From contig VBII01000035.1 in assembly GCA_005887735.1 (NCBI GenBank), positions 1-32,203 of the forward strand: a stretch of DNA of 32,203 nt, in the 5' to 3' direction. Shown piece by piece: positions 10,109-23,937 of this stretch. How positions within the stretch are numbered: position 1 is the stretch's first letter; each line of letters begins with the position of its first letter. This DNA comes from Chloroflexota bacterium. Lineage in GTDB: Bacteria > Chloroflexota > Dormibacteria > Dormibacterales > Dormibacteraceae. The translations under genes and the position numbers were made by a program. The notes beneath the pieces are model-generated. The model was not told where the DNA came from and made no database searches. It was given only the letters and a program-made list of their open reading frames with translations.

Positions 10109-10822
10109 ATGCCGCCTGTGGTCGTGAGTCCTCCATTGAGGATGGAGGTTCTGCAGGCGGGGGTTGAGGAAGAGGTCCGGCGACTGGTTGCCCGTGAGCT
10201 TCACGACCGGGTTGCCCAGACCCTTACCGGAATGCTGGTTGACGTGGAGAATTTCAAGTCCGAGCAGGTCAGCTGGCAGGACGTGGTGCAGCAGCTGGAT
10301 GGGATCCAGAGCTCTACCCGTCAGGTATTGGCCAGCATTCGCCAGCTCCTGCACGATCTGCGCGGTGAAGAAGCGCTGGACGGCAGCTTTGTGGACGCCG
10401 TCAAAGCGCTCCTGGTGCGATTTGAAGCCAAAACCGGCATTCGGCCCGAGATCGAGATCACCGAAGGCTGGCCGAAGGCACTGACGCCGCAGGCCTCCTT
10501 GAACCTCTATCGGATCATCGAGGAAGCGCTCTCCAACATTCGAATGCACAGCGGGGCGAAGAGCGTTCGCATCGTGCTCGGGCCCCATGCCGAGAACGAG
10601 CTTGGAATCGTTGTTGAGGACGATGGCCGAGGCGTCGACACCGACCCCTCACGGCCGGTAGGCATGGGGACGATTGGAATGCGCGAGAGGGCCATGTTCC
10701 TGGGTGGACATATCCGGGTCGAGAGCGAAAACGGCCATGGGACCCTCGTTCGCGCGATGTTTCCGAAGGATCTGCTTGTATCGCACGATACGGTGATCGT
10801 TGCGAAAAGGAAAAGTTCATGA
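10109..10822 (+). CDS. Soluble NarX/DesK-type histidine kinase (HisKA_3)
   Basis: About 237 residues from ATG 10109; GTG 10097 (track) and ATG 10142 are alternatives. The phosphorylated His is in ARELHDRVAQTLTGML (HisKA_3 dimerisation domain). The HATPase_c domain has its N box (EEALSNIRMHSGAKSV), G1 box (VEDDGRGVD) and G2 box (GMGTIGMRERAMFLGG). There is no transmembrane helix and no recognisable sensor domain; the His-containing helix starts within about 30 residues of the N-terminus. It is therefore a cytoplasmic core kinase that must receive its signal from a partner protein or be constitutively active. Its stop overlaps the ATG of the next response regulator (ATGA), a classic coupled two-component pair. 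Confidence 0.92.
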   Translation: MPPVVVSPPLRMEVLQAGVEEEVRRLVARELHDRVAQTLTGMLVDVENFKSEQVSWQDVVQQLDGIQSSTRQVLASIRQLLHDLRGEEALDGSFVDAVKALLVRFEAKTGIRPEIEITEGWPKALTPQASLNLYRIIEEALSNIRMHSGAKSVRIVLGPHAENELGIVVEDDGRGVDTDPSRPVGMGTIGMRERAMFLGGHIRVESENGHGTLVRAMFPKDLLVSHDTVIVAKRKSS

Positions 10823-11441
10823 CCGTAGCCGTCAGAGCCGCGCGCGTACTCGTAGTCGACGATCAGACGCTCTACCGGACCGGCCTCGCAAGCCTGCTCG
10901 GTGATGATGAGCGGGTGGAGGTCGTCGGCCAGGCGGTCGACGGCGCCGATGGAGTCAAGCAGGCCGCCAAGCTGAAGCCTGACGTCGTGCTCATGGACAT
11001 CAAGATGCCCAACGTCGACGGCATCGAAGCAACTCGGCAGATCATGGAAGCGGTCCCGGGCATCAAGGTATTGATCCTGACCACGTTCGAAACCGACAGC
11101 CAGGTCATCCAGGCGTTGAAGGCCGGGGCCAGCGGTTACGTCCTGAAGGACTCCTCGGCGGCTGCAATCGTCAGCAGCATCGTGGCCGTGATGTCCGGGG
11201 AAAAGGTCATGGCGAGCGCCGTTGCCAACCGAGTCCTCGACATGCTCACAGGGACCGCGACTCCGAAGGAGTTCTACGACGGGCTGACCAACCGGGAGAT
11301 CGAGATCCTCAAGCTCCTGGCGAGCGGGATGGCCAACAAGCAGATTGCTTACCGCCTGAAGATCAGCGAGAAAAGCTCGGGATCTACGACCGGTCTCAGG
11401 CGGTCCTCTACGCCGTAAAGAAAGGACTGGTCGAGGTCTAG
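10819..11441 (+). pseudogene. Response regulator with deleted DNA-recognition helix and frameshift
   Basis: The receiver is intact: VLVVDDQTLYRTG, acceptor Asp in VVLMDIKMPNVDG, Thr in LILTTFE, Lys in GYVLKDSS. The LuxR domain begins normally (LTNREIEILKLLASGMANKQIAYRLKISEK) but then reads SSGSTTGLRRSSTP and stops at 11418. In another frame the expected ending appears right after the break: KLGIYDRSQAVLYAVKKGLVEV, with TAG at 11439-11441. What is missing is the recognition helix (family pattern TVRNHVSNIYE), about 34 nt, near 11371-11374. The flanking GAGAA would plausibly have been repeated at both ends of the lost piece, suggesting slippage deletion. As written, the protein could be phosphorylated but should not bind DNA. 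Assembly error is an alternative. Confidence 0.85.
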
Positions 11442-11488: not shown

Positions 11489-11588
11489 CGGCGCACATAT
11501 ATAGGTAAGGAACAAGAGTCCCGGCCGGTCCTTGGTGGAATTGCCACAGGCGGCCGGGGGTTGTCATGGGCTAGTGTTGCCGGAACCG

Positions 11589-11675
11589 ATGCGTAGAACG
11601 GTGACTCGCGCCCTCTTCCTCACTCGGCGACGAGCGATCGACTACGCCCGCTGCGCCAGCTGCTTCTGTAGCTAG
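11589..11675 (+). CDS. Cysteine-rich leader peptide upstream of the sulfur operon
   Basis: A 28-codon ORF below the track's size limit: ATG 11589 to TAG 11673-11675. It begins MRRTVTRALFLTRRRAIDYA and ends RCASCFCS. Three Cys codons fall within the last seven sense codons. The order of a basic, Arg-rich start, an 'RRxxxDxxR' core and a Cys-rich end resembles the short leader peptides placed before sulfur genes in Actinomycetota, some of which mediate cysteine-responsive attenuation. Two hairpins follow within 35 nt, before the sulfite reductase start at 11771. The proposed role is that ribosomes stall on Cys codons when cysteinyl-tRNA is scarce, favouring expression of the operon. Presence, length and composition are seen; the mechanism is inferred. 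GGAA shortly before the ATG is only a weak ribosome site. Confidence 0.7.
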   Translation: MRRTVTRALFLTRRRAIDYARCASCFCS

Positions 11676-11690
11676 GCCGAGCTCCTGAGC

Positions 11691-11727
11691 GGGGCCCATT
11701 GGCCCCCACCACGCCTGGCCGGCGTGG
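11691..11727 (+). promoter_or_regulatory. Candidate attenuator hairpins between leader peptide and sulfite reductase
   Basis: GGGGCC-CATT-GGCCCC (11691-11706) and CCACGCC-TGGCC-GGCGTGG (11709-11727) are perfect 6- and 7-bp stems, back to back, 15 nt after the leader stop. A pyrimidine stretch (CTCTCTCTTC) follows the second. Stalling on the leader's Cys codons would place a ribosome just upstream of the first stem. Which stem acts as terminator or sequesters a ribosome site is not determined. Confidence 0.5.
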
Positions 11728-11770
11728 GCTCTCTCTTCGGCATCAGCTCACCAGTTGGAGGCGCATTTCA

Positions 11771-13451
11771 TTGTCGAACCTGTCGGACGGAACCCATATC
11801 GACGGCTTTTCCCGGAACGAGTCCGTCAAGGCGGCGAGCAACCACCTTCGCGGACTCATCAAGGAGGAGCTCGTCGAGGACACTCCTGCCTTCAGCGACG
11901 ACTCCGAGCAGCTTCTCAAGTTCCACGGCGTCTACCAGCAGGATGATCGCGACCGGCGGAAAGAGGCGCGCGCCAAGGGACTCGGGCGGCATCGTCTCGG
12001 CTGACGCCTACCTCGCCCACGATGACATCAGCCGGCGCTGGGCCAACGGGACCTTGCGCGTCACGACCCGCCAGGACTTCCAGCTTCACGGGGTGCTCAA
12101 GGGCGACCTCAAGAAGTCGATCGCGGCCATCAACCAGGCGCTGCTGACGACCCTGGGCGGATGCGGTGATGTCGAGCGAAACATCATGTGCTGCCCTGAG
12201 CCGAAGACAGATCGGTTCCACGAGCAGGCGCACCTGGCCATCGCTGCCATGGTCGCCGCCCTGACCCCGCGCACCGGCGCCTACCACGAGATCTGGCTCG
12301 ACGGCCAGGTGGTCGACTCCTCCGAGCCGGAGGCCGAGCCGCTTTACGGCGAGCAGTACCTCCCGCGCAAGTTCAAGACCACGGTCGCGCTCGAGGGCGA
12401 CAACTGCGTCGACATCTACGCCCACGACCTCGCCCTCGTCGCCATGCGTGGGGACGCAGGCTCGGTGAGAGGTTTCAACGTCCTGGTCGGCGGCGGTCTG
12501 GGCCGGACCCACAACAAACCCGAGACGTTTGTCGCGGTGGCGCAGCCCATGGCGTTCGTTGAGCCCGACCAGGTGGTCGACGTGGCTCATGCGGTTGTCG
12601 CGGTGCAGCGCGACTACGGCGACCGCTCCAATCGCAAGCACGCGCGCCTCAAGTACACGATCGCGGACCGCGGGCTCGACTGGTTCCGCGGCGAGGTCCA
12701 GGCACGCCTACCTTTCGCCCTGCACGCGCCCGAACCACTCCATTGGGAGCCGGTGGACGACCACCTCGGCTGGCACGACCAGGGCGATGGCAAGCTCTAC
12801 GTCGGCCTCTACATCGAAAACGGGCGCATCGCGGACGTGGGCGAGGTCCGCTCCCGCGCCGGGTTGCGCAGGATCGTCGAGGAGATCCGACCGCAGGTGC
12901 GGCTCACGGCGCAGCAAAACGTCATCCTCGCCGGCATCGCTCCGGCTCAGAGACCGCGCGTCGAGGCGCTGCTCGCGGAGCACGGCATGGCCCGGGTCGA
13001 ATCGATCCCCCACGCCATCCGGTACGCGATGGCCTGCCCCGCCATCCCCACCTGCGGCCTGGCGGTCGCCGAGGCCGAGCGCGTGATTCCGAGCCTCATC
13101 CGCCAGATCGCCTCGATGCTCGACGAGCTAGGCCTCGCCGGCGAGCGGATCAGCTTCCGGATGAGTGGCTGCCCCAACGGCTGCTCTCGGCCATACCTCG
13201 GCGACGTCGGCTTCGTCGGGACGACGCTCGGCAAGTACGACGTCATGCTGGCCGGCGATTTCGAAGGCACGCGCCTGAATCGCGTCTACGCACCCAACGT
13301 GCCGATTGGCGACATCCCATCGCTGCTGCGTCCGATCTTCATCGAGTTTCGTTCCAACAGGCGGCCAGGTGAGGGCTTTGGCAACTGGGTCGAACGCATT
13401 GGGTTCGACGCGCTGCGCGAAGGTCTGGCTGCGACGGAGGCGATCGCATGA
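11771..13451 (+). pseudogene. Assimilatory sulfite reductase (siroheme, 4Fe-4S), frameshifted near N-terminus
   Basis: This enzyme reduces sulfite to sulfide. Translation begins at TTG 11771 with GGAGG nine nt upstream. The N-terminal part is typical (RNESVKAASNHLRGLIKEEL, then SEQLLKFHGVYQQDDRDRR). Near 11981 it shifts frame and would stop at 12003. The other frame resumes with GGIVSADAYLAHDDISRRWANGTLRVTTRQDFQLHGV and runs intact to 13451. Between them the family has about 13 residues (pattern …YxFMVRxxxPG); about 38 nt are missing. The siroheme/cluster ligands appear present: CGDVERNIMCCPEP upstream, and MSGCPNGCSRPYLGDVGF near the C-terminus. It overlaps cysH by 4 nt (ATGA). If the deletion is real, sulfate assimilation here cannot finish; if it is an assembly fault, the gene is whole. 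Confidence 0.85.
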
Positions 13452-14173
13452 CCGCTGAATGCACGCTGCGCTGGGCCTATGACACGTTCGCGCGCGTCGC
13501 GATCGTCGCGAGCTTCCAGGCCGAATCGTCGGTGATCATCGACATCGCGTCGAGAATCCGCCCTGACCTGCGGGTGCTGACGCTGGACACCGGCCGGCTG
13601 CCGCCCCAGACGCACGAAATGATCGACCGCGTCCGCGATCGCTACGGAATCGAGGTCGAGGTCATCACCCCAGATCCGGATGAGGTCACGAAGATCGTCG
13701 CGGCGCAGGGCAGCCACCTCTTCTACAGGTCGGTCGAGATGAGGCGGCTGTGCTGCGAGGTGCGAAAGTCGCGGCCGCTCGACCTCGCGCTGAGCGGCTA
13801 CGACGCCTGGGTGACGGGCCTGCGCCGCGAGCAGGCGGCGACGCGCGCCAACACGCAGGTCGTCGCCCTCGATCCCGAGCACCACGGAATCACCAAGATC
13901 GCTCCGCTGGCTTCCTGGTCGAAGGCAGAGGTGTGGGACTACATCCGCGAGCACGAGCTGCCCTACCACTCGCTCTACGACCACGGCTATACCTCCATCG
14001 GCTGCGCTCCCTGCACGCGCGCGACTGTCCAGGGCGAGGACGAGCGGGCGGGCCGCTGGTGGTGGGAGCAGAACGAGGTCAAGGAGTGCGGGCTCCACTT
14101 CCCTGCGAGCGGGGAAGGTGACCCGGTTCGCGAAGCGAGCCCGGTCGGATGGGGAGGTCCAAGCGCTCAGTGA
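13448..14173 (+). CDS. cysH: Assimilatory APS reductase (CysH family, iron-sulfur type)
   Basis: A 241-residue thioredoxin-dependent reductase that converts adenylyl sulfate to sulfite and AMP. The nucleotide-binding PP-loop region shows VAIVASFQAESSVIIDIA. Two Cys pairs, RRLCCEVRK and IGCAPCTRA, are the 4Fe-4S ligands that distinguish APS reductases from PAPS-only enzymes. The catalytic Cys lies in the usual C-terminal ECGLHF motif. With a Cys-Cys pair present, APS should be the preferred substrate, which makes the APS kinase domain encoded downstream partly redundant for this pathway. The ATG at 13448 overlaps the sulfite reductase stop (ATGA). About 25 C-terminal residues after ECGLHF look non-conserved and overlap the next gene. 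Confidence 0.92.
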   Translation: MTAECTLRWAYDTFARVAIVASFQAESSVIIDIASRIRPDLRVLTLDTGRLPPQTHEMIDRVRDRYGIEVEVITPDPDEVTKIVAAQGSHLFYRSVEMRRLCCEVRKSRPLDLALSGYDAWVTGLRREQAATRANTQVVALDPEHHGITKIAPLASWSKAEVWDYIREHELPYHSLYDHGYTSIGCAPCTRATVQGEDERAGRWWWEQNEVKECGLHFPASGEGDPVREASPVGWGGPSAQ

Positions 14174-15201
14174 GATATGCGGGCGCGGTTATTGCGGTCC
14201 TTCTCTTCACTGCGTGCGGCGCACCGGTCCAGTCGGCGTCCCCCAACGATGACGGGCCCCTCACGCTGCGCCTGGGCTACTTCCCGAACCTGACGCATGC
14301 ACCCGCGCTGGCCGGCCTCGGCAAGCGATTCTTCGCGAGAGCACTCGGCAGCTCGGTGACGCTGGAGACGCACACGTTCAATGCCGGCCCCGACGCCGTG
14401 ACGGCGATCCTGTCCGACTCGATCGATGCCACGTTCATCGGACCCAATCCGACCACCAACGCGTTCGCCCAATCGCACGGACAGGCGATTCGCGTCATCG
14501 CCGGCGCAACTTCAGGCGGCGCCCTCCTCGTGGTCAAGCCCAGCATCACATCGGTCGCTCAGCTGAAAGGAAAGAAGATCGCTGATCCCCAGCTCGGCGG
14601 CACGCAAGACGTCGCCCTGCGTTGGTTTCTCAAGAACAACGGATTTCGCAGCGACACAGCAGGCGGCGGCGACGTGAGCGTGCAGCCTCAGGACAACTCG
14701 CAGACGCTGCTCGGGTTCAGGCAGGGACAGATCGATGGGGCATGGGTGCCGGAGCCATGGGCGAGCCGCTTGATCGTCGAAGGTGGCGGCAGGGTCCTGG
14801 TGGATGAGCGCGACCTGTGGCGTCAGGGAAATTTCGTGACCACCAACCTTGCCGTCCGAACCGACTTCCTTCGCGCACATCCGAAACGGGTGAAGGCCCT
14901 GCTGGAAGGGCTGTACCAGGCGGTCGCGTACCTGAGGTCGAACCCGAACGACGCGCAGATGGCGGCAAATGACGCGGTGGCTCAGCTCACCGGCAAAAAG
15001 CTGGCCGCCGCCGTCGTCGCCGCGGCCTGGCCGCACATGACCTTCACGCTCGACCCGCTGGCCCCGACGCTGAAGGCGTCGGCCGCCCACGCCCACGCGG
15101 TGGGGTTGCTGGGCAATGTCGACCTTCACGGGCTCTACGACCTCGCGCTGTTGAACCAGGTCCTCGCCGAGCACGGCCAGCCGCGAGTCCAGGGCTTGTG
15201 A
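14149..15201 (+). CDS. ssuA: Sulfonate/taurine/nitrate-type ABC transporter binding lipoprotein
   Basis: A 350-residue extracellular solute-binding protein of the SsuA/TauA/NrtA group. The basic start (GRSKRSVR) and hydrophobic stretch end at TAC, a lipoprotein cleavage site. Conserved features include LRLGYFPNLTHAPALAGL, the A-x-G-x-x-D-A-type region VTAILSDSIDATFIGPNPTTNAF, LKGKKIADPQLGGTQDVALRWFL and GAWVPEPWASRL. The placement between sulfur-reduction genes suggests it imports an organosulfonate, or perhaps sulfate itself, since no CysPTWA-type importer is present. ATG 14149 overlaps cysH by 25 nt; GTG 14170, overlapping the cysH stop as GTGA, is an equally possible start. The substrate cannot be read from sequence. 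Confidence 0.88.
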   Translation: MGRSKRSVRYAGAVIAVLLFTACGAPVQSASPNDDGPLTLRLGYFPNLTHAPALAGLGKRFFARALGSSVTLETHTFNAGPDAVTAILSDSIDATFIGPNPTTNAFAQSHGQAIRVIAGATSGGALLVVKPSITSVAQLKGKKIADPQLGGTQDVALRWFLKNNGFRSDTAGGGDVSVQPQDNSQTLLGFRQGQIDGAWVPEPWASRLIVEGGGRVLVDERDLWRQGNFVTTNLAVRTDFLRAHPKRVKALLEGLYQAVAYLRSNPNDAQMAANDAVAQLTGKKLAAAVVAAAWPHMTFTLDPLAPTLKASAAHAHAVGLLGNVDLHGLYDLALLNQVLAEHGQPRVQGL

Positions 15202-15962
15202 GCAGCGTCCTCGCGCTTTCAGACAAGCACGCGTTGAGCGTCGAGCGGCTGACCGTCGCCTTTCCGCACGGCGACCGCCTTCTGGTCGCGCTGCAGGGAG
15301 CCACGCTCGAGGTCAAGCGTGGCGAGCTCGTCTGCATCGTGGGAGCTTCGGGCTCTGGCAAGAGCACACTCCTCAACATCCTCGCCGGCCTGGACCGGCC
15401 GACCAACGGACGCGTCCATGTCCATGGGCGGGTGGCGCTCATGTTCCAGGAGGCGGCGCTCCTGCCGTGGCTGACCGCGGCCGGCAACGTTGAGCTGCCG
15501 CTCGAGCTTCGCGGCATCAAGAGCCGGCAGCGACGTGAGCTGGCGCGTGAGCTGCTAGGCCGCGTTCATCTCGCCGGCTTCGAGAAACGGCGCCCTCACG
15601 AGCTCTCCGGCGGCATGAAGCAGCGGGTCGCCCTCGCCCGCGCCCTGGCCCAGGACGCCGACGTGCTGCTCATGGACGAGCCGTTCGCCGCTCTCGACGC
15701 AATAACCCGCGACCTGCTGCACGAAGAGCTGGAGCGGATCTGGAAAGAGACAGGCCTCACGGTCCTGTTCGTCACGCACAACGCGCGCGAGGCGGTGCGG
15801 CTCGGCGATCGAGTCCTGGTCTTCACCAGCCGGCCGGGCCGCGTCGCCCACGAGGTGAAGGTCGGGCTGCCGCGACCGCGCCACCTCGATTCGCCCGACC
15901 TGGCCGTAATCGCCGGCCGGATCACTGAGCGCTTGAAGCAGGAGGTCGCGCTAGGCAACTGA
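15198..15962 (+). CDS. ssuB: ABC transporter ATP-binding protein (SsuB/TauB type)
   Basis: A 254-residue ATPase that powers the transporter. Walker A is GASGSGKST, the Q-loop is LMFQEAALLPWLT, the signature is ELSGGMKQRVALARAL, Walker B is DVLLMDEPFAALD, and the switch His lies in LFVTHNAREA. These features, and the 'LPWLT' after the Q-loop, are characteristic of the sulfonate/nitrate/taurine group. GTG 15198 overlaps the stop of the binding protein (GTGA). The permease follows 4 nt after its stop. All motifs are intact. Confidence 0.95.
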   Translation: MSSVLALSDKHALSVERLTVAFPHGDRLLVALQGATLEVKRGELVCIVGASGSGKSTLLNILAGLDRPTNGRVHVHGRVALMFQEAALLPWLTAAGNVELPLELRGIKSRQRRELARELLGRVHLAGFEKRRPHELSGGMKQRVALARALAQDADVLLMDEPFAALDAITRDLLHEELERIWKETGLTVLFVTHNAREAVRLGDRVLVFTSRPGRVAHEVKVGLPRPRHLDSPDLAVIAGRITERLKQEVALGN

Positions 15963-15966
15963 CCTC

Positions 15967-16806
15967 GTGGCCAAGCTCGAGGTGGGCCAGCCGCAAGCGC
16001 TCGGGTCCACCATCCCGCCGGACCGGCTGGCCGTGGTTTGGTCCAGCCTGTGGCCGAAGCTGGCGGCGATCGCGCTGGCTCTGGCGAGCTGGCAAGTGAT
16101 CGTCTGGTCCGGGTGGAAGCCAGACTACGTGCTGCCCGGTCCACTCCCTGTCTTCCAGCGCCTCGGCGAGGATCTGGGGAACCCCGACTTCCAGCTAGGC
16201 CTCGCGATCACGCTGCGCCGCGCCGTCCTCGGCTACACGATCGCGGTCGCGATCGGCAGCGTGGTGGGCGTCCTGATCGCGCGCGTCGGCCTCCTGCGCA
16301 AGGCGGTAGGCTCGGCCATCCTCGGCCTGCAGTCGATGCCGTCGATCGCCTGGTTCCCGCTCGCGATCCTTCTGTTCGGGCTCAACGAGACGGCAATCTT
16401 CTTCGTCGTGATCCTCGGGGCGGCCCCGGCGATCGCGGGCGGCCTCCTCAACGGCGTGGACCACGTGCAGCCCCTTCTGATCCGGGTTGGTCGCGTGATG
16501 GGCGCGCGCGGATTGGTCCTCTATCGCCACGTGATAATCCCTGCCGCGCTGCCGTCGTTCGTGGGCGGCCTCAAGCAGGGATGGGCGTTCGCATGGCGCA
16601 GCCTGATGGCCGGCGAGATCATCGGCATCGTCGGGCACCAACTTTCGATCGGACAGCAGATCCAGTTCGCTCGCGACTTCGCCGACACGCAGCAGCTGCT
16701 GGCGATCCTGGTCGTGATCTTCGTCATCGGCGTGGTCATCGACAGCTTGTTTGGCGCCTTCGACCGCGCGATCCGGCGGCGATGGGGTCTGGGAGGAGAC
16801 AGCTGA
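15967..16806 (+). CDS. ssuC: ABC transporter permease (SsuC/TauC type)
   Basis: A 279-residue permease from GTG 15967, with about six hydrophobic helices (LAAIALALASWQVIVW, AVLGYTIAVAIGSVVGVLIA, AWFPLAILLFGL, TAIFFVVILGAAPAIAGGLL, LLAILVVIFVIGVVIDSLF among them). The cytoplasmic coupling loop GARGLVLYRHVIIPAALPSFVGGLKQGWAFAWRSLMAGEI carries the EAA-like motif that contacts the ATPase and is typical of the sulfonate/taurine permeases. It completes the three-gene transporter. Its stop TGA overlaps a possible CTG start of the next gene, so the operon continues without a gap. Confidence 0.93.
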   Translation: MAKLEVGQPQALGSTIPPDRLAVVWSSLWPKLAAIALALASWQVIVWSGWKPDYVLPGPLPVFQRLGEDLGNPDFQLGLAITLRRAVLGYTIAVAIGSVVGVLIARVGLLRKAVGSAILGLQSMPSIAWFPLAILLFGLNETAIFFVVILGAAPAIAGGLLNGVDHVQPLLIRVGRVMGARGLVLYRHVIIPAALPSFVGGLKQGWAFAWRSLMAGEIIGIVGHQLSIGQQIQFARDFADTQQLLAILVVIFVIGVVIDSLFGAFDRAIRRRWGLGGDS

Positions 16807-18449
16807 GCGAGGGATTCGTCGTCTGGTTCACTGGATTGTCCGGCGCGGGCAAGTCCACGATCGCGACCGCGCTCCAATCGGAGCTCGCGCGTCGCGGCCG
16901 ACGCGCAGAGCTGCTCGACGGCGACGAGGTGCGGACCCATCTCTCCAAGGGTCTGGGCTTCTCGAAGGAAGACCGCGACACCAACATCCGGCGCATCGGC
17001 TACGTCGCACGCCTGGTCGCGCGCCACGGCGGCGTTGCGATCACCGCGGCCATCTCTCCCTACCGCGACGTTCGCGACGAGGTGCGTAGCCAGACTCCCA
17101 ACTTCGTCGAGGTCTTCGCCCGCTGCCCGCTGGACACGCTGGTCGAGCGCGACGTCAAGGGCCTGTATCGCAAGGCGATCGCCGGCCAGCTCGCCAACTT
17201 CACGGGCGTCAGTGACCCCTACGAAGTGCCGCTTCGGCCCGAGGTCACGTGCGATACGTCGATAGAGAGCGTGGCCGAGTCGGTGGCAAAGGTCATCGAC
17301 AGGCTGGAGCGCCTCGGCCACCTGCCGCGGCAGGTGCCGGAGCGCCTGCCTTCCGGCGACGAGCTGCAGCAGCTTCGCGCCGAGGCCAGGGGGCTGCCGC
17401 GACTGCAGGTTGGGCAGCGCGAGCTGTCCGACATCTTCATGCTCGCCGCCGGCGCGCTCTCACCTCTCGACGGCTTCATGGCGCGCGACGACTACGAGTC
17501 CGTCATCGACCATGGGCGCCTGGCAAGCGGAGCGCCGTTCACGATCCCAATCGTTCTGCGCGCAGAAGCCGTCCCGAGCGCCGATCGGGTCGCGCTGTTC
17601 ACCGGCGATAAGGCGGTCGGCATCCTCAACATCACCGACTCCTACGAGGCAGACCACCTGCGCGAGGCGCGGGCCGTCTACGGAACGGTCGATGACGCGC
17701 ATCCAGGCGTGCGTGTGCTCAAGGAATCCGGCGTTTGGGCGATCGCCGGCGACGTCGTCGCGCTGGCTCGGCCGAGCTCCGGCTTTCCTGAGTTCGACCT
17801 GACCCCTGTCCAGGTCCGCGAGTTCAAAGCGCGGCGCGGCTGGCAGACGATGGTTGGCTTCCAGACCCGCAACCCGGTGCATCGCGCGCACGAATATCTC
17901 CAGAAGGTGGCGCTCGAGATCGTCGACGGCTTGCTGCTGCACCCGCTCGTCGGCGAGACCAAGAGCGACGACATCCCGGCCTCGGTGCGCATGCGCTGCT
18001 ATGAGGAGCTGCTCGCCGGCTACTTCCCCGCCGACCGCGTCCTGCTGGCGACCAATCCCGCCTGGATGCGCTACGCGGGACCAAAAGAGGCCGTCTTCCA
18101 CGCGATAGTCCGGCGCAACTACGGCTGCACCCACTTCATCGTGGGTCGGGACCACGCCGGCGTCGGCAGCTACTACGACACTTATGCGGCGCACCGCATC
18201 TTCGACGCCTACAAGCCTCGGGAACTCGGGATCGAGATCCTTCGCTTCGAGCACACCTTCTTCTGCTCCGCCTGCGGCGGCATGGCGTCAACGCGCACGT
18301 GCCCGCACCCCAAGGAGCTCCACCAGACGCTCAGCGGCACCGCGGTGCGCAAGCTGCTGGAGGTGGGATCGGACCTGCCGGTCGAATTCACGCGGCCTGA
18401 GGTGGCCCGGGTTCTGCTCGAGGCCTCTAAGCAGGAGGCGAGCGCTTGA
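16782..18449 (+). CDS. Bifunctional APS kinase-ATP sulfurylase fusion (kinase first)
   Basis: About 555 residues. The ORF track starts at 16038 inside the permease gene, which is wrong. ATG 16782 is the nearest canonical start; CTG 16803, overlapping the permease stop as CTGA and preceded by GGGAGGAGA, is an attractive alternative. The N-terminal domain is APS kinase: P-loop FTGLSGAGKST, DGDEVRTHLSKGLGFSKEDRDTNIRRIGYVA, and the KGLYRKA loop. The C-terminal domain is ATP sulfurylase of the homo-oligomeric type: QTRNPVHRAHEYLQ, GRDHAGVGSYYD, and a cysteine cluster (FFCSACGGMASTRTCPH). Together they make APS from sulfate and ATP, then PAPS. The order kinase-sulfurylase is that of animal PAPS synthases, opposite to several bacterial fusions. 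Motifs are intact. Confidence 0.92.
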   Translation: MGSGRRQLSEGFVVWFTGLSGAGKSTIATALQSELARRGRRAELLDGDEVRTHLSKGLGFSKEDRDTNIRRIGYVARLVARHGGVAITAAISPYRDVRDEVRSQTPNFVEVFARCPLDTLVERDVKGLYRKAIAGQLANFTGVSDPYEVPLRPEVTCDTSIESVAESVAKVIDRLERLGHLPRQVPERLPSGDELQQLRAEARGLPRLQVGQRELSDIFMLAAGALSPLDGFMARDDYESVIDHGRLASGAPFTIPIVLRAEAVPSADRVALFTGDKAVGILNITDSYEADHLREARAVYGTVDDAHPGVRVLKESGVWAIAGDVVALARPSSGFPEFDLTPVQVREFKARRGWQTMVGFQTRNPVHRAHEYLQKVALEIVDGLLLHPLVGETKSDDIPASVRMRCYEELLAGYFPADRVLLATNPAWMRYAGPKEAVFHAIVRRNYGCTHFIVGRDHAGVGSYYDTYAAHRIFDAYKPRELGIEILRFEHTFFCSACGGMASTRTCPHPKELHQTLSGTAVRKLLEVGSDLPVEFTRPEVARVLLEASKQEASA

Positions 18450-19692
18450 GGTACTACCCGGTTTTCCTCGATCTGGCGGGCCAGCCTTGCATCGTGATCG
18501 GGGATGGGACGTTCGCGACCGAGAAAGCCGCAGGCCTTCGGGAAGCCGGTGCGCTGGTGCGGGTCATCTCATCGCGCGACTACAGACCTGGCGGCCTGCA
18601 CGGCGCGCGGTTGGTGGTGGACGCGAGCGAGGATCTCGAGGTGAACCGCCAGACGTGGGAGGAAGCGGAAAAAGCCGGCATCTTGATCAACGTGGTCGAC
18701 CGGCCGGCCCAGTGCCGCTTCATCGCACCTGCGATCGTGCGGCGCGATCCACTGCTGATCGCCATCTCGACCTCCGGCGAAAGCCCGTTCCTGGCTTCTG
18801 CCCTGCGGGCCCGGCTCGAGCGCTGGCTTGGCAGCGAGTGGGGGCCGTTCACGGCGCTGGTCGGTCGCATCCGCCGCGAGCTGCGGGAGCGCGGCGTCCC
18901 GATCGGGGAACAGACGAGGGTCTACCGCCGGCTGGTCAGCTCGGATATACGAAAGCTGCTGCGGGCCGGTCAGTCCGACAAGGCGGTGGCGCGTGCGGCG
19001 ATCCTTGCCCGGCCGGACGTCGAGTACCCCGGGCGGACGCGGACGTCGTGCTGCACGACGCCCTGATCGCGCCCGCAACTCTCGAGCTGTGTGGTCCGCA
19101 GGCGATCCTCGAATCGGTCGGCAAGCGGGGCGGATCCGAAAGTGCGCAGCAGGATGCCATCACCGCCCGGATGATCGAGCTGGCGCGGGCGGGTCGCGTC
19201 GTGGTGCGATTGAAGGGTGGCGACCCCTTTGTCTTCGGACGGGGCGGGGAGGAGCTGCGCGATCTTCTTGCCGCAGGCGTGGATGTCGTGGTCGTCCCGG
19301 GTGTGACCTCGGCCCTGGCTGCGGGGGAGTCGATTGGCGTTCCCGTCACGCTGCGCGGCATCGCGTCCTCCGTCGCCATCACTACGGCGCAGGGAACGGG
19401 CTCGATGAGCAGGCTCCGTGACCTGGCGGCCGCCACCGACACGCTGGTCGTCATGATGGCTCGCACCAACCTCACCGAAGTGACCGCGGCGATCGCGAGC
19501 GTGGTCGGACGCGAGAGACCTGCGGCCCTGGTCAGCAAGGCGACCTGGACCGACCAACGCAGCGTCGAAGGCCCGATCGGTGACATCGCGCGCATCGCCG
19601 ACAGCGCTCACATCGACCCGCCGGCGACGCTGATCGTCGGCGACGTCGTCACAGCTCTCACCGTAAGCGGCCTCCAGCTCGCCGCTCTTTGA
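18446..19692 (+). pseudogene. Siroheme synthase: precorrin-2 dehydrogenase plus uroporphyrinogen methyltransferase, frameshifted at the junction
   Basis: This protein makes the siroheme cofactor of sulfite reductase. TTG 18446 overlaps the previous stop and has GGAGG seven nt upstream. The N-terminal domain (Met8/CysG-N) has YYPVFLDLAGQPCIVIGDG, VNVVDRP-like INVVDRPAQCRF, and AISTSGESPFLASALR. After about residue 195 it loses frame and stops at 19066. The other frame resumes as ADADVVLHDALIAPATLELC and continues with methyltransferase motifs RLKGGDPFVFGRGGEE, VPGVTSALAAGESIGVPVTLRG and TLIVGDVV to 19692. The missing piece is the first methyltransferase strand and SAM-contacting Gly-rich motif (family pattern VxLVGAGPGDPxLLT), about 70 nt, at about 19028-19034. 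As written the methyltransferase half lacks its start and a key motif. Confidence 0.85.
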
Positions 19693-19714: not shown

Positions 19715-22441
19715 GTGAGTGAGGAGCAAAGCCGGCCTCTTCAGCTGACGGCTTTCTGCGTGCGGGGTGAACCGATCAGGTACGCCGACGCGGTGCGCGG
19801 CAGCTTCACGCCGATCGAAGTCGGTGCTGCGTGGGGCCCGCCATGGAGCACGACGTGGTTCCACGTCGTGGGAACGGTGCCCGAGTCGTGGGTGGGACGC
19901 CGCGTGGTCGCGCAGTTCGACCTCGGCTTCGAGGGGCCGACCGGATTCACGTGCGAGGCGCTGGCGTGGAAGGACGGCAAGCCCTGGCGCGGCGTCGATC
20001 CCAACCACCGGTGGCTGCCTGTCGATGGTCCTGACGTCGATTTCTACCTCGAGGCCGCGGCCAATCCGCGGGCGACGGAGCAGGGATCGGAGCCCGCGCC
20101 ATCGATGATCGCCCTTCGTGCATCGCCCGAGCCCGCGTTCGTCCTCCGCCAGGCGGTGTTGACCTTTCGCCCCGCAGTCGAAGCGGAGAGCGACAAAGGC
20201 CGGCTCGATCCATCGCACAAGATCACAGCCGTCGGCCATGCCCACATCGACACGGCCTGGGAATGGCCGATCCGCGAGGCGAAGCGAAAGGTCGCGCGCA
20301 GCTGGTCGACGCAGCTCGCCCTTATGGATGAGTACCCCGACTACGTGTTCGTCGCCTCCCAACCCGCGCAATACGCGTGGATGAAGGAGTCGTACCCCGA
20401 CATCTACCGCCGAATCAAGGAGAAGGTGGCCGCCGGCCGGTGGGAGCCGGTCGGCGCGATGTGGGTCGAGGCGGACTGCAACCTGCCTTCAGGCGAATCG
20501 CTCGTGCGTCAGCTGCTGCACGGCAAGCGCTTTTTCATACAGGAGTTCGGTTACGAGACCAGGATCCTCTGGTTGCCCGACGTTTTCGGCTACCCGGGCA
20601 ACCTGCCGCAGCTCGTCTCCGAGGCCGGCTGCGATTCATTCCTCACCCAGAAGCTTTCGTGGAACGACACCAACAAACCCGAGCACCACACCTTCATGTG
20701 GGAGGGGATCGATGGCACTCGAATCTTCACCCACTTCCCGCCCGCCGACACGTACAACGGCAGCTTCAGTCGTGAAGAAGTCGAGTGGAGCGTCCGCAAC
20801 TTCAAGGACGGCCAGAGCTCAAACCGATCGCTCTACCTGTTCGGTTGGGGCGACGGAGGAGGCGGTCCGCAGGCGGAGATGATCGAGTCGGCACACCAAC
20901 TCGGAGTCGAGATCGGACGCGCAGCCGACTTCTTCGAGGTCGCAGCGGCCGAAGCGAACGGCCTCACCACATGGGTCGGCGAGCTGTACTTCGAGCTGCA
21001 CCGCGGCACATACACGAGCCAGTCGCGGACCAAGCGGTTGATCCGCCGGGCGCAGCAGTCGCTTCGGGAGGCGGAGATGTGGTCGGTGGCTGCCGGCGAT
21101 TATCCGTCGAGCGAGCTCGAGGAGCTCTGCAAGTCCCTCCTGCTCAACCAGTTCCACGATATCCTTCCCGGCTCGAGCATCGACTGGGTGTACGAGGTGG
21201 CGGAGCGCGACCTGGAGCACGTCGCGGCGCGCGCCGCTGAAATCGGTGCGGCGGCCATGTCTGCGATCGTGGGCAAAGGCCAACAACTGGTTGCCTTCAA
21301 CTCGACATCGCATCCTCGCAGCGAGATTGTCAACCTCAGCGGCGAATACGCGCGCATCGAGGCACCGTCGTGCGGGTGGGCCGTTGTCATCGGCCACCCA
21401 GGCGAACGCGAGGTCGCGGTCACCGACCACAGCATGGAGAACGAGCTGCTCCGCGTCGAATGGGACGACCGCGCCGTGCTGACCTCGATCCGGGACAAGG
21501 AAGCGGATCGCGAAGTTCTGAGCGGTCCTGGGAATCTGCTCCAGCTGCACGACGACAATCCCAATCGGTGGGACGCGTGGGACCTCGACGCCGGCTACCG
21601 CGATTCCTTCACCGACGTGACAGCCTTCGAGCTGGCCAGGCTGCGGGGCGGACTGCGCGGAGCGCTGGCCTTCACGCGCAAGTTCGGGGATTCGAGAATC
21701 GTCCAGGTGATGTCGCTCGACGCCGGCTCACGTGTATTGCGCTTCGAGACGCTCGTGGACTGGCAGGAACGGCACAAGATGCTGAAGGTCGCCTTTCCGG
21801 TGACGGTCAGCTCGCGCGAGGCGACCTACGAGATCCAGTTCGGCCACCTCCGCCGGCCCACTCACTACGACACGAGCCAGGCGAGGGCGATGTTCGAAGT
21901 TTGCGCGCAGCGTTGGGCTGACCTGGGCGACGCCGATTACGGCGTCGCGCTGCTCAATGACTGCAAGCACGGCTACGACATCCATGGATCGGTGATGCGG
22001 CTCTCCCTGTTGCGGGGACCGACGCATCCTGACCCGACCGCCGACCTCGGCGACCACCAGTTCACGTATGCCCTGATGCCGCATTCGGGAGATTTCCGAG
22101 AGGCCGGCGTCATCGACGCCGCCGAGGACCTGAACTGGCCGCTGCTGCCCGCTCATGGAAACCTGGCGGCCCGCACCTCCCGGTCGCTCATCGAGATCGA
22201 CACCCGGCAGGTGAAGGTCGAGGCGATCAAGCGCGCCGAGGATTCTGACGCGGCGATCGTGCGGCTGTACGAGGCGTGGGGGAGAAGCTGCACGGCTCGA
22301 GTCCAGACCACGCTGCCTGCCGCGCGGGCACACCTTTGTGACCTCCTGGAACGCAACGTCGAAGAGGTTGCGGTGCGCGATGGGCAGATCGACCTGGAGC
22401 TGGCGCCATTCAAGATCTTGACCTTGAAGCTGGAGCCGTGA
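19715..22441 (+). CDS. Alpha-mannosidase, glycoside hydrolase family 38
   Basis: A 908-residue zinc-dependent exoglycosidase releasing mannose from alpha-mannosides. The catalytic domain shows GHAHIDTAWEWPIRE (zinc His and Asp), ILWLPDVFGYPGNLPQL (nucleophile Asp in LPDVFG), LFGWGDGGGGP and LLNQFHDILPGSS (zinc His). The C-terminal beta domains include DDNPNRWDAWDLDAGYRD and LQFG/IQFGHLRRPTHYDTSQA, as in cytosolic bacterial GH38 enzymes. No signal peptide is visible, so it acts inside the cell on imported or recycled glycans. At 908 residues it is somewhat shorter than many relatives. The GTG start at 19715 has a poor ribosome site. It overlaps the xylulokinase gene (GTGA). Confidence 0.93.
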   Translation: MSEEQSRPLQLTAFCVRGEPIRYADAVRGSFTPIEVGAAWGPPWSTTWFHVVGTVPESWVGRRVVAQFDLGFEGPTGFTCEALAWKDGKPWRGVDPNHRWLPVDGPDVDFYLEAAANPRATEQGSEPAPSMIALRASPEPAFVLRQAVLTFRPAVEAESDKGRLDPSHKITAVGHAHIDTAWEWPIREAKRKVARSWSTQLALMDEYPDYVFVASQPAQYAWMKESYPDIYRRIKEKVAAGRWEPVGAMWVEADCNLPSGESLVRQLLHGKRFFIQEFGYETRILWLPDVFGYPGNLPQLVSEAGCDSFLTQKLSWNDTNKPEHHTFMWEGIDGTRIFTHFPPADTYNGSFSREEVEWSVRNFKDGQSSNRSLYLFGWGDGGGGPQAEMIESAHQLGVEIGRAADFFEVAAAEANGLTTWVGELYFELHRGTYTSQSRTKRLIRRAQQSLREAEMWSVAAGDYPSSELEELCKSLLLNQFHDILPGSSIDWVYEVAERDLEHVAARAAEIGAAAMSAIVGKGQQLVAFNSTSHPRSEIVNLSGEYARIEAPSCGWAVVIGHPGEREVAVTDHSMENELLRVEWDDRAVLTSIRDKEADREVLSGPGNLLQLHDDNPNRWDAWDLDAGYRDSFTDVTAFELARLRGGLRGALAFTRKFGDSRIVQVMSLDAGSRVLRFETLVDWQERHKMLKVAFPVTVSSREATYEIQFGHLRRPTHYDTSQARAMFEVCAQRWADLGDADYGVALLNDCKHGYDIHGSVMRLSLLRGPTHPDPTADLGDHQFTYALMPHSGDFREAGVIDAAEDLNWPLLPAHGNLAARTSRSLIEIDTRQVKVEAIKRAEDSDAAIVRLYEAWGRSCTARVQTTLPAARAHLCDLLERNVEEVAVRDGQIDLELAPFKILTLKLEP

Positions 22442-23937
22442 GCGGCCCTGGCTTGCTGATCGGGCTCGATGTCGGCACCAGCGGCGCGCGTGCGGTCGCC
22501 GTCGACCTTCTCGGCAACGTCGTCGCGTCGGCTTCGGCTCCGTATCCGCTTTCGGTCCCACGGCCTGGATGGACCGAGCAAGACCCCCAGCAGTGGTGGA
22601 GCGCGAGCCAGGACGTTCTGAAACGTGTCGTCTTGCAGCTTTCGGACCCTCCGCTGGCCCTTGGACTGACCGGGCAGATGCACGGGTCGGTCTTCCTCGA
22701 CGGAAGCGATCACGTCATCCGTCCGGCCCTCTTGTGGAGCGACCAGCGGACCGAGAGCCAGTGCCGGACCATCACCGAGAAGGTTGGCGCCGCCCGGCTG
22801 ATCGAGATCACGGGCAACCCCGCGATCACTGGATTTCAAGCGCCCAAGGTGCTGTGGCTGGGCGAGCACGAGCCTGGGTCCTACGCTCGTGTGCGCCACC
22901 TACTGCTGCCGAAGGACTACATCCGCCTTCGCCTGACCGGTGAGTTCGCGACCGACGCCTCGGATGCATCGGGCACACTCCTGCTTGACCTGAATCGCCG
23001 CCAGTGGTCCGACGAGATCCTCGCCGCGCTTGAGATTCCGCGAGCCTGGTTGCCCGAGGTCTTCGAAGGTCCCGACCTCAGTGGCCGCATCACTCCTGCG
23101 GCCGCCTCGGCGACCGGGTTGCCGACGGGCCTTGCTGTGGCCGCCGGTGCGGGCGACAACGCGGCGGCCGCGGTCGGGAACGGGATCGTGCGCGAAGGCC
23201 TGGTCAGCTCGTCGATCGGCACGAGCGGGGTGGTTTTCGCGGACAGCGCCACGCCCCGCATCGAACCCAGAGGACGGCTCCACGCTTTCTGCCACGCGAC
23301 GCCCGGTCGCTATCACCTGATGGGGGTGACGCTCTCCGCGGGAGGCTCGCTGCGCTGGTGGCGCGAAGCTATGGACGGCCAGGACTACGAGGTGCTGTCG
23401 TCGCTGGCCGCTCGAGCACCCGCCGGATGCGAAGGTCTCGTCTTCCTGCCCTACCTCACCGGCGAGCGAACACCGCATCTGGACCCGCGTGCCAGGGGAG
23501 CGTTCGTGGGCCTCAATCTGCGCCATACGCAGGCTCACCTGACGCGCGCGGTGATGGAGGGCGTCGTCTACAGCCTCAAGGATTCCCTCGACCTGATGGA
23601 AGAGATCGGCGTGCCGGTGACTGAGATTCGCGCGACCGGTGGCGGATCACACAGCCTGCTGTGGCGCCAGATGCAGGCCGACGTGTTCGGACGGCCGGTG
23701 CACCGCGTCGACAACGAAGAAGGCCCGGCCTTTGGAGCCGCATTGCTCGCGGGCGTGGCGGGCGGCGCCTACGCGGATGTGCCCGAAGCATGCTCGGTGA
23801 TCCGGCTGCATCGGGGTGTCGAGGCACCTGACGCAGAGCGACATCGCGTTTACCAGGGTTATCACGCGGCCTACGTCGAGGCGTACAAGACATTGGCCCC
23901 CTTGATGCACACGCTCGCCGATCTCAGCGCCTCGTAG
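22438..23937 (+). CDS. xylB: Xylulokinase (FGGY family)
   Basis: A 499-residue sugar kinase that phosphorylates D-xylulose to feed the pentose phosphate pathway. N-terminal FGGY signature: IGLDVGTSGARAVAVDLLG. The segment LGLTGQMHGSVFLD is the hallmark of xylulokinases, distinguishing them from glycerol kinases. The second domain has AAGAGDNAAAAVGNGI, GTSGVVF, LPYLTGERTPHLDPRARG and ATGGGSHSLLWRQMQADVFGRPV. GTG 22438 overlaps the mannosidase stop (GTGA), so the two are co-translated. Pairing a mannosidase with a pentulose kinase is unusual. A role for another ketose cannot be excluded, but the motifs fit xylulose best. Confidence 0.92.
   Translation: MSGPGLLIGLDVGTSGARAVAVDLLGNVVASASAPYPLSVPRPGWTEQDPQQWWSASQDVLKRVVLQLSDPPLALGLTGQMHGSVFLDGSDHVIRPALLWSDQRTESQCRTITEKVGAARLIEITGNPAITGFQAPKVLWLGEHEPGSYARVRHLLLPKDYIRLRLTGEFATDASDASGTLLLDLNRRQWSDEILAALEIPRAWLPEVFEGPDLSGRITPAAASATGLPTGLAVAAGAGDNAAAAVGNGIVREGLVSSSIGTSGVVFADSATPRIEPRGRLHAFCHATPGRYHLMGVTLSAGGSLRWWREAMDGQDYEVLSSLAARAPAGCEGLVFLPYLTGERTPHLDPRARGAFVGLNLRHTQAHLTRAVMEGVVYSLKDSLDLMEEIGVPVTEIRATGGGSHSLLWRQMQADVFGRPVHRVDNEEGPAFGAALLAGVAGGAYADVPEACSVIRLHRGVEAPDAERHRVYQGYHAAYVEAYKTLAPLMHTLADLSAS

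Follow-up and report, generated by a model that had tools for sequence, protein, structure and literature searches.

The window, that is, the whole stretch of 32,203 nucleotides that was analysed, belongs to a 2.7-Mb, 78% complete metagenome-assembled genome (MAG) of an uncultured soil bacterium in the class Dormibacteria of Candidatus Dormibacterota. Its named relatives are MAGs assigned to Chloroflexi or Candidatus Dormiibacterota/Dormibacteraeota, which places the host outside Actinobacteria. Pfam searches identified on the forward strand, on which all leader and operon features described below also lie, a sulfate-assimilation operon headed by a sulfite reductase hemoprotein gene (cysI-like, 11771–13451, Pfam NIR_SIR) with a TTG start. 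This gene is followed by cysH and genes for an NMT1-type binding protein, an ABC ATPase, a fused APS kinase/ATP sulfurylase and a siroheme-type TP_methylase (13448–19692), and genes for an alpha-mannosidase (GH38) and an FGGY carbohydrate kinase (19715–23937) lie on the same strand 3' of the sulfur operon. A LuxR-type response regulator gene (10819–11418) is located just upstream, and compared with the relative L031 a gap of about 31–34 nt at 11365–11380 interrupts its DNA-binding domain. The sulfite reductase gene likewise carries a 38-nt gap near 11981 (11975–11990) relative to its close relatives L031 and L032, leading to a frameshift in the assembly that may be an assembly error or a real lesion. 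An actinobacterial origin of the operon was considered and rejected: the CysI protein matched the enzymes of Allomeiothermus, Paenibacillus and Nostoc at 45–48% and a plasmid-borne nitrite/sulfite reductase of Streptomyces at 29%, and with the former being nearer, transfer of the whole operon is not suggested.

Between the regulator gene and the operon, at 11589–11675, lies a 28-codon ORF with an ATG start and a TAG stop (11673–11675) that encodes MRRTVTRALFLTRRRAIDYARCASCFCS and is kept in relatives. The peptide terminates in RCASCFCS, with the three Cys codons at 11652, 11661 and 11667, and the ORF is followed by two perfect hairpins at 11691–11706 and 11709–11727, so that the initial annotation was right to describe an ORF ending in CASCFCS directly before the sulfite reductase operon with two perfect hairpins after it. 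Among the 61 genomes searched, 21 of the same family had a clear match to sulfite reductase. Each of these 21 carried a leader of this kind 5' of the enzyme gene, which is more than chance would give, and at least 17 contained the core (L/I)xRRxxIDYxxCASC(F/V/A)CS. In four of the 21 (L010, L017, L040 and L041), a TSUP-like permease, as read from the sequence, starts between the leader and cysI, so that the leader stays at the head of the operon.

A codon table by position across 26 leaders of the cysI group distinguished the constraints acting along this ORF. Within the LTRRRAIDYA segment (11619–11648), the residues L-T-R-R-R are constant and the synonymous codons encoding them drift freely, with up to five Arg codons at a single position; the Asp is also constrained at the amino-acid level, and drift is evident in the codons for Thr and Arg. 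Such drift with the residues kept indicates that the leader ORF is very probably translated and that its peptide is under selection. The final eight codons, CGC TGC GCC AGC TGC TTC TGT AGC (11649–11672), show almost no synonymous change at the 26 loci and are frozen letter for letter, suggesting that selection also acts on this Cys segment at the RNA level. The last Cys codon was TGT in 41 of 42 leaders and the earlier ones were TGC in 76 of 79 cases, counts that lack phylogenetic independence from locus to locus, and the genomic share of TGT among Cys codons was 0.20 in about 200 kb of the host genome including the window. The sole Cys codon of the Streptomyces leader L153 is also TGT. Short ORFs are frequent in a genome of 66% G+C, and the conservation could in principle reflect a promoter or another non-translated element in which this ORF arose by chance. 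That explanation is hardly credible given that the Arg residues are kept despite synonymous drift, that the in-frame conservation reaches the stop codon and that the leader recurs before unrelated genes.

A promoter-like element, the -10-like hexamer TAGTGT at 11572–11577, is positioned 11 nt 5' of the leader ATG. In 32 of 42 leaders, a TANNNT box precedes an in-frame start by 9–11 nt, and the corresponding share of background ATG/GTG codons is 0.19%, a contrast that is somewhat inflated by the use of other ATG/GTG codons of the same loci, mostly in coding sequence, as background and by the presence of more than one candidate start in most leaders, with the effect still large. From the position of the box, the 5' UTR is predicted to span no more than a few nucleotides, and the mRNA is therefore probably near-leaderless, starting just upstream of 11589.

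The relationship of this ORF to described leaders was explored with curated families and with a dedicated model. The window leader matched NF042934, an NCBIfam family named 'putative leader peptide' (cis_reg_atten), over all 19 positions (E 3e-5), its 23.5 bits falling short of the cut-off of 27 bits, and NF042933, the Ms5788A family, with 23.3 bits (E 3.8e-5, below the cut-off of 45). The other Dormibacteria leaders tested reached at most 23.2 bits, some having no match, and a control leader of Streptomyces situated 5' of nitrite/sulfite reductase passed NF042934 with 33 bits. None of the 301 Chloroflexota genomes contained a leader above the NF042934 cut-off. Because NF042934 was thus too weak across these genomes, a search model was built from the Dormibacteria leaders themselves, and it recovered leaders throughout the family as well as, with weaker matches, related ones in other parts of the class. 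Its convincing matches were confined to Dormibacteria among 399 Chloroflexota genomes, where the marginal matches outside the class (L111, L113, L114 and L115) were discarded because none fits the leader pattern. Judged by its sequence, the window leader appears to be a variant, from outside Actinobacteria, of an already described type of leader; it would work as the actinobacterial leaders do, and membership of a curated family is not claimed. The suggestion of the initial annotation that this is an example outside Actinobacteria is accordingly supported by the Chloroflexi / Candidatus Dormiibacterota relatives, and the conservation of the Cys codons, which it had proposed to check, is found in the same-family cysI leaders. 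Neither plasmids, searched by tblastn with the bare leader peptide, nor one search of the open-access literature on Dormibacter and leader peptides yielded a counterpart, the single literature match concerning secondary metabolites, and Rfam returned no family match for the window, only a sub-threshold snoRNA match at 12427–12473 on the other strand.

The related leaders recovered by the Dormibacteria model precede a range of genes, named here from a reading of the translated proteins without profile matches. Leaders L081–L087 and more divergent ones are followed by beta-carbonic anhydrase, L088 and L089 by cysE-cysK (serine acetyltransferase and cysteine synthase), L080 by a TSUP permease with APS kinase, L093 by siroheme synthase (cysG) and L094 by a cysteine-dioxygenase-like gene. 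The beta-carbonic-anhydrase-like gene, whose product begins MSVTDEL, lies 3' of Cys leaders in many Dormibacteria (L081–L087, L091, L092 and L095), and some of the carbonic-anhydrase leaders sit in genomes without a sulfite reductase match.

Folding of the region between the leader and cysI revealed a stem, P1, whose 5' arm (11676–11681) begins immediately 3' of the stop codon and whose 3' arm UUCGGC lies at 11736–11741; it is present in the MFE fold, contains covarying pairs in relatives and encloses both perfect hairpins. Hairpin 1 (P2, GGGGCC-CATT-GGCCCC, 11691–11706) has 6 bp, and hairpin 2 (P3, CCACGCC-TGGCC-GGCGTGG, 11709–11727), which was also detected in a scan for terminator-like elements, has 7 bp and a weak U-tract (GCTCTCTCTT). 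One covarying P1 pair takes in the stop codon itself, TAG accompanying a G-C pair and TGA an A-U pair. Downstream, the Shine–Dalgarno sequence (SD) GGAGG (11757–11761) overlaps GGCGCA (11760–11765), the partner of the Cys codons, and this segment (11757–11765) is invariant or nearly so in relatives. RNAalifold analysis of 20 cysI leaders predicted that UGCGCC, which corresponds to Cys-Ala codons (11652–11657 in the window), pairs with GGCGCA over the SD. The same program placed a local hairpin, AGCUGC-UUCU-GUAGCU, over the Cys codons (11658–11673), in which base changes in the divergent leaders L018 and L020 (G-C to C-G, as read from the sequence) preserve the pairing. For seven carbonic-anhydrase leaders, RNAalifold predicted that UGCCUCU (Cys-Leu-Cys codons) pairs with GGAGGCA, which is the SD, in a helix enclosing a stem that begins at the leader end. 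The helices of the two sets differ in sequence, and in both cases the input of the program was the alignment alone. Conserved predicted pairing of regulatory codons with the SD, as expected of a translational attenuator, is thus found in both sets.

Comparative controls supported the cysI-set structure as a whole. In the proposed arrangement, 86% of the cells were paired, compared with 28–55% when the partner was slid; three pairs had changed on both sides, and the covariation score was matched by none of 500 shuffles, a score that according to the warning of the tool is no probability. The leader arm is invariant in the cysI set, and the Cys-codon/SD helix itself accordingly has no compensatory change. 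The mean probability that the SD is paired with the leader fell from 0.65 to 0.27 in the cysI set after shuffling of the spacer; the value for the window was 0.41, below most relatives, and the divergent leaders L090–L092, L094 and L095 had no predicted SD pairing with the leader. Duplex energy was abandoned as evidence: in controls drawn from about 200 kb of the host genome including the window, the leader/SD duplex was not better than duplexes formed with the SD regions of other genes in that genome, nor than those after synonymous recoding, and the energy was not significant by itself in either control. The case therefore rests on comparative structure. Modelling of a stalled ribosome raised the mean accessibility of the SD modestly, from 0.21 to 0.35 in the cysI set and from 0.15 to 0.34 in the carbonic-anhydrase set, and in the window from 0.32 to 0.37.

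The two hairpins invite a different interpretation, namely classical transcription attenuation, in which hairpin 2 would be the intrinsic terminator and a ribosome stalled at the Cys codons would favour an antiterminator. The scan for terminator-like elements gave two overlapping matches, both on hairpin 2, where 0.2 would be expected, and both the window and its near relatives have a T-rich stretch after hairpin 2 (TTTTTT in L005 and TTCTTTTT in L031), which forms a convincing U-run in a few close relatives such as these. However, a good U-run is present in only part of the same-genus leaders, most leaders from the rest of the family have none, and hairpins of this kind are absent from the carbonic-anhydrase leaders. 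Hairpin 2 was predicted at 0.99–1.00 in the window for every ribosome position, a modelled stall disfavoured it in none of nine leaders, so that a competing antiterminator was not found, and inspection of alignment A3 by eye revealed no conserved antiterminator. Behind mycobacterial cys leaders, too, no terminators were found (Seliverstov et al. 2005, PMC1262725). Transcription attenuation is therefore an unlikely explanation. The proposal of the initial annotation is thus supported in part: the cysteine-codon leader is strongly supported by the conservation of the peptide and its codons and by the recurrence before sulfur-related genes, but a role of the two hairpins as the attenuator is not supported, these being missing from the carbonic-anhydrase leaders, mostly devoid of a U-run and, for hairpin 2, predicted in every ribosome state.

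Since the Cys codons are predicted to pair with the SD, P1 joins the two segments and hairpin 2 is predicted to form regardless of the ribosome, translational attenuation is favoured over classical transcription attenuation. The element is accordingly proposed to be a cysteine-responsive translational attenuator, with a probability of roughly two in three. Transcription would start a few nucleotides from the leader AUG, as judged from the -10 box, and translation of the leader would begin without delay. With cysteine in ample supply, the ribosome would read the three Cys codons, terminate and depart, whereupon P1, beginning right after the leader stop, would place the Cys-codon segment beside the cysI SD. 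The segment UGCGCC(AG)CUGCUU would then pair with GGCGCA and its flanks, leaving cysI poorly translated, and lower expression of the operon would presumably follow by polarity or Rho. When Cys-tRNA is short, we infer that the ribosome would stall at the Cys codons and occupy that segment, so that the SD would be freed and the sulfite reductase gene and the remaining operon turned on. Ribosome stalling, cysteine as the signal, the switch and the size of the switch thus belong to the inferred part of this scheme, and the leader with its two tiers of conservation, the promoter-like box and its placement, the conserved complementarity between Cys codons and SD and the covarying P1 are features of the sequences themselves. 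Conservation and RNA folding suggest that the leader lets the cell switch on sulfur assimilation when cysteine is scarce.

A Rho-dependent variant, in which a Rho loading site in the untranslated spacer or in cysI left untranslated would become exposed once the leader has been read to its end, and in which stalling would block this exposure, has a precedent in the mechanism already proposed for mycobacterial cys leaders (PMC1262725). The long spacer after the leader stop would suit it, and it is compatible with SD sequestration as the first step. The spacer is, however, highly structured and only 51–59 nt long in the main carbonic-anhydrase set, and Rho-dependent attenuation appears even less probable than an intrinsic terminator.

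The amino-acid constraint on L-T-R-R-R and D upstream of the Cys codons would be unneeded by a purely codon-counting attenuator and is otherwise unexplained, and a role for the nascent peptide was considered for this reason. LTRRRxxD in the exit tunnel would arrest the ribosome, and the Cys codons would either mark the site of arrest or sense cysteine or the redox state; the Streptomyces leader VSRRHVDLGRMSSAIC retains a similar motif. The arrest is predicted, and the Cys codons with the surrounding RNA are fixed at the nucleotide level too, which argues against such a reading; it is doubtful, albeit somewhat more plausible than a terminator, and it may operate together with translational attenuation.

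Comparison with known systems places this proposed translational attenuator close to, and apart from, the actinobacterial leaders. For the polycysteine leaderless short ORFs of mycobacteria (Canestrari et al. 2020, Mol Microbiol 114:93-108), the accounts given by PMC9031893 and PMC13236596 describe an attenuation that depends on how fast elongation proceeds with the cysteine available. The Dormibacteria leader resembles them as a short ORF with Cys codons before sulfur genes, on an mRNA that is predicted to start close to the ORF and to be near-leaderless. It differs in its phylum, in having C-x-x-C-x-C in place of contiguous Cys codons, in its conserved P1 stem and in its sub-cut-off score to NF042933. 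Candidate cys leaders of Mycobacterium, Propionibacterium acnes and Bifidobacterium contain runs of Cys codons by the stop and precede cys operons (PMC1262725). The Dormibacteria leaders share with these a short ORF immediately 5' of sulfur genes, with conserved Cys codons close to its stop, as expected of a mycobacteria-type leader, and the lack of a clear terminator; no conserved terminator-like hairpins were found in the actinobacterial candidates, whereas a covarying stem and a helix between Cys codons and SD are predicted for the Dormibacteria leaders. The LEU element found at leuA in Actinobacteria (Seliverstov et al. 2005, PMC1262725) has Leu codons that pair with the SD and contains a pseudoknot, and a leader-peptide mechanism was doubted by its authors. 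Codons of the Dormibacteria leader are likewise predicted to pair with the SD, although these are Cys and not Leu codons and the pseudoknot is particular to LEU.

These likenesses raise the idea that the Dormibacteria and actinobacterial leaders constitute a single class of cysteine sensor, ancient and common to both, whose conserved nascent peptide (RR..xD) and Cys-codon/SD helix act jointly on a regulon including carbonic anhydrase, and which may predate the split of the phyla or have been moved between them as a regulatory cassette. The Dormibacteria model gave no matches on a Streptomyces replicon where NF042934 finds four leaders above its cut-off, so that common descent is not proven, and the idea is put forward tentatively, as possible and short of an even chance. 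If true, the cassette would have travelled independently of the gene that it controls.

Control of sulfur assimilation by Cys-codon leaders has so far been described in Actinobacteria, and here it would extend to an uncultured soil phylum, in which the leader precedes several different sulfur-related genes. The proposed RNA mechanism, in which the Cys codons double as an anti-Shine–Dalgarno sequence, is explicit and testable. The Dormibacteria leaders also provide a comparative handle on why the non-Cys residues of the peptide are conserved and on the age of this control relative to Actinobacteria, and they point to a likely role for short ORFs below annotation limits in Candidatus Dormibacterota genomes.
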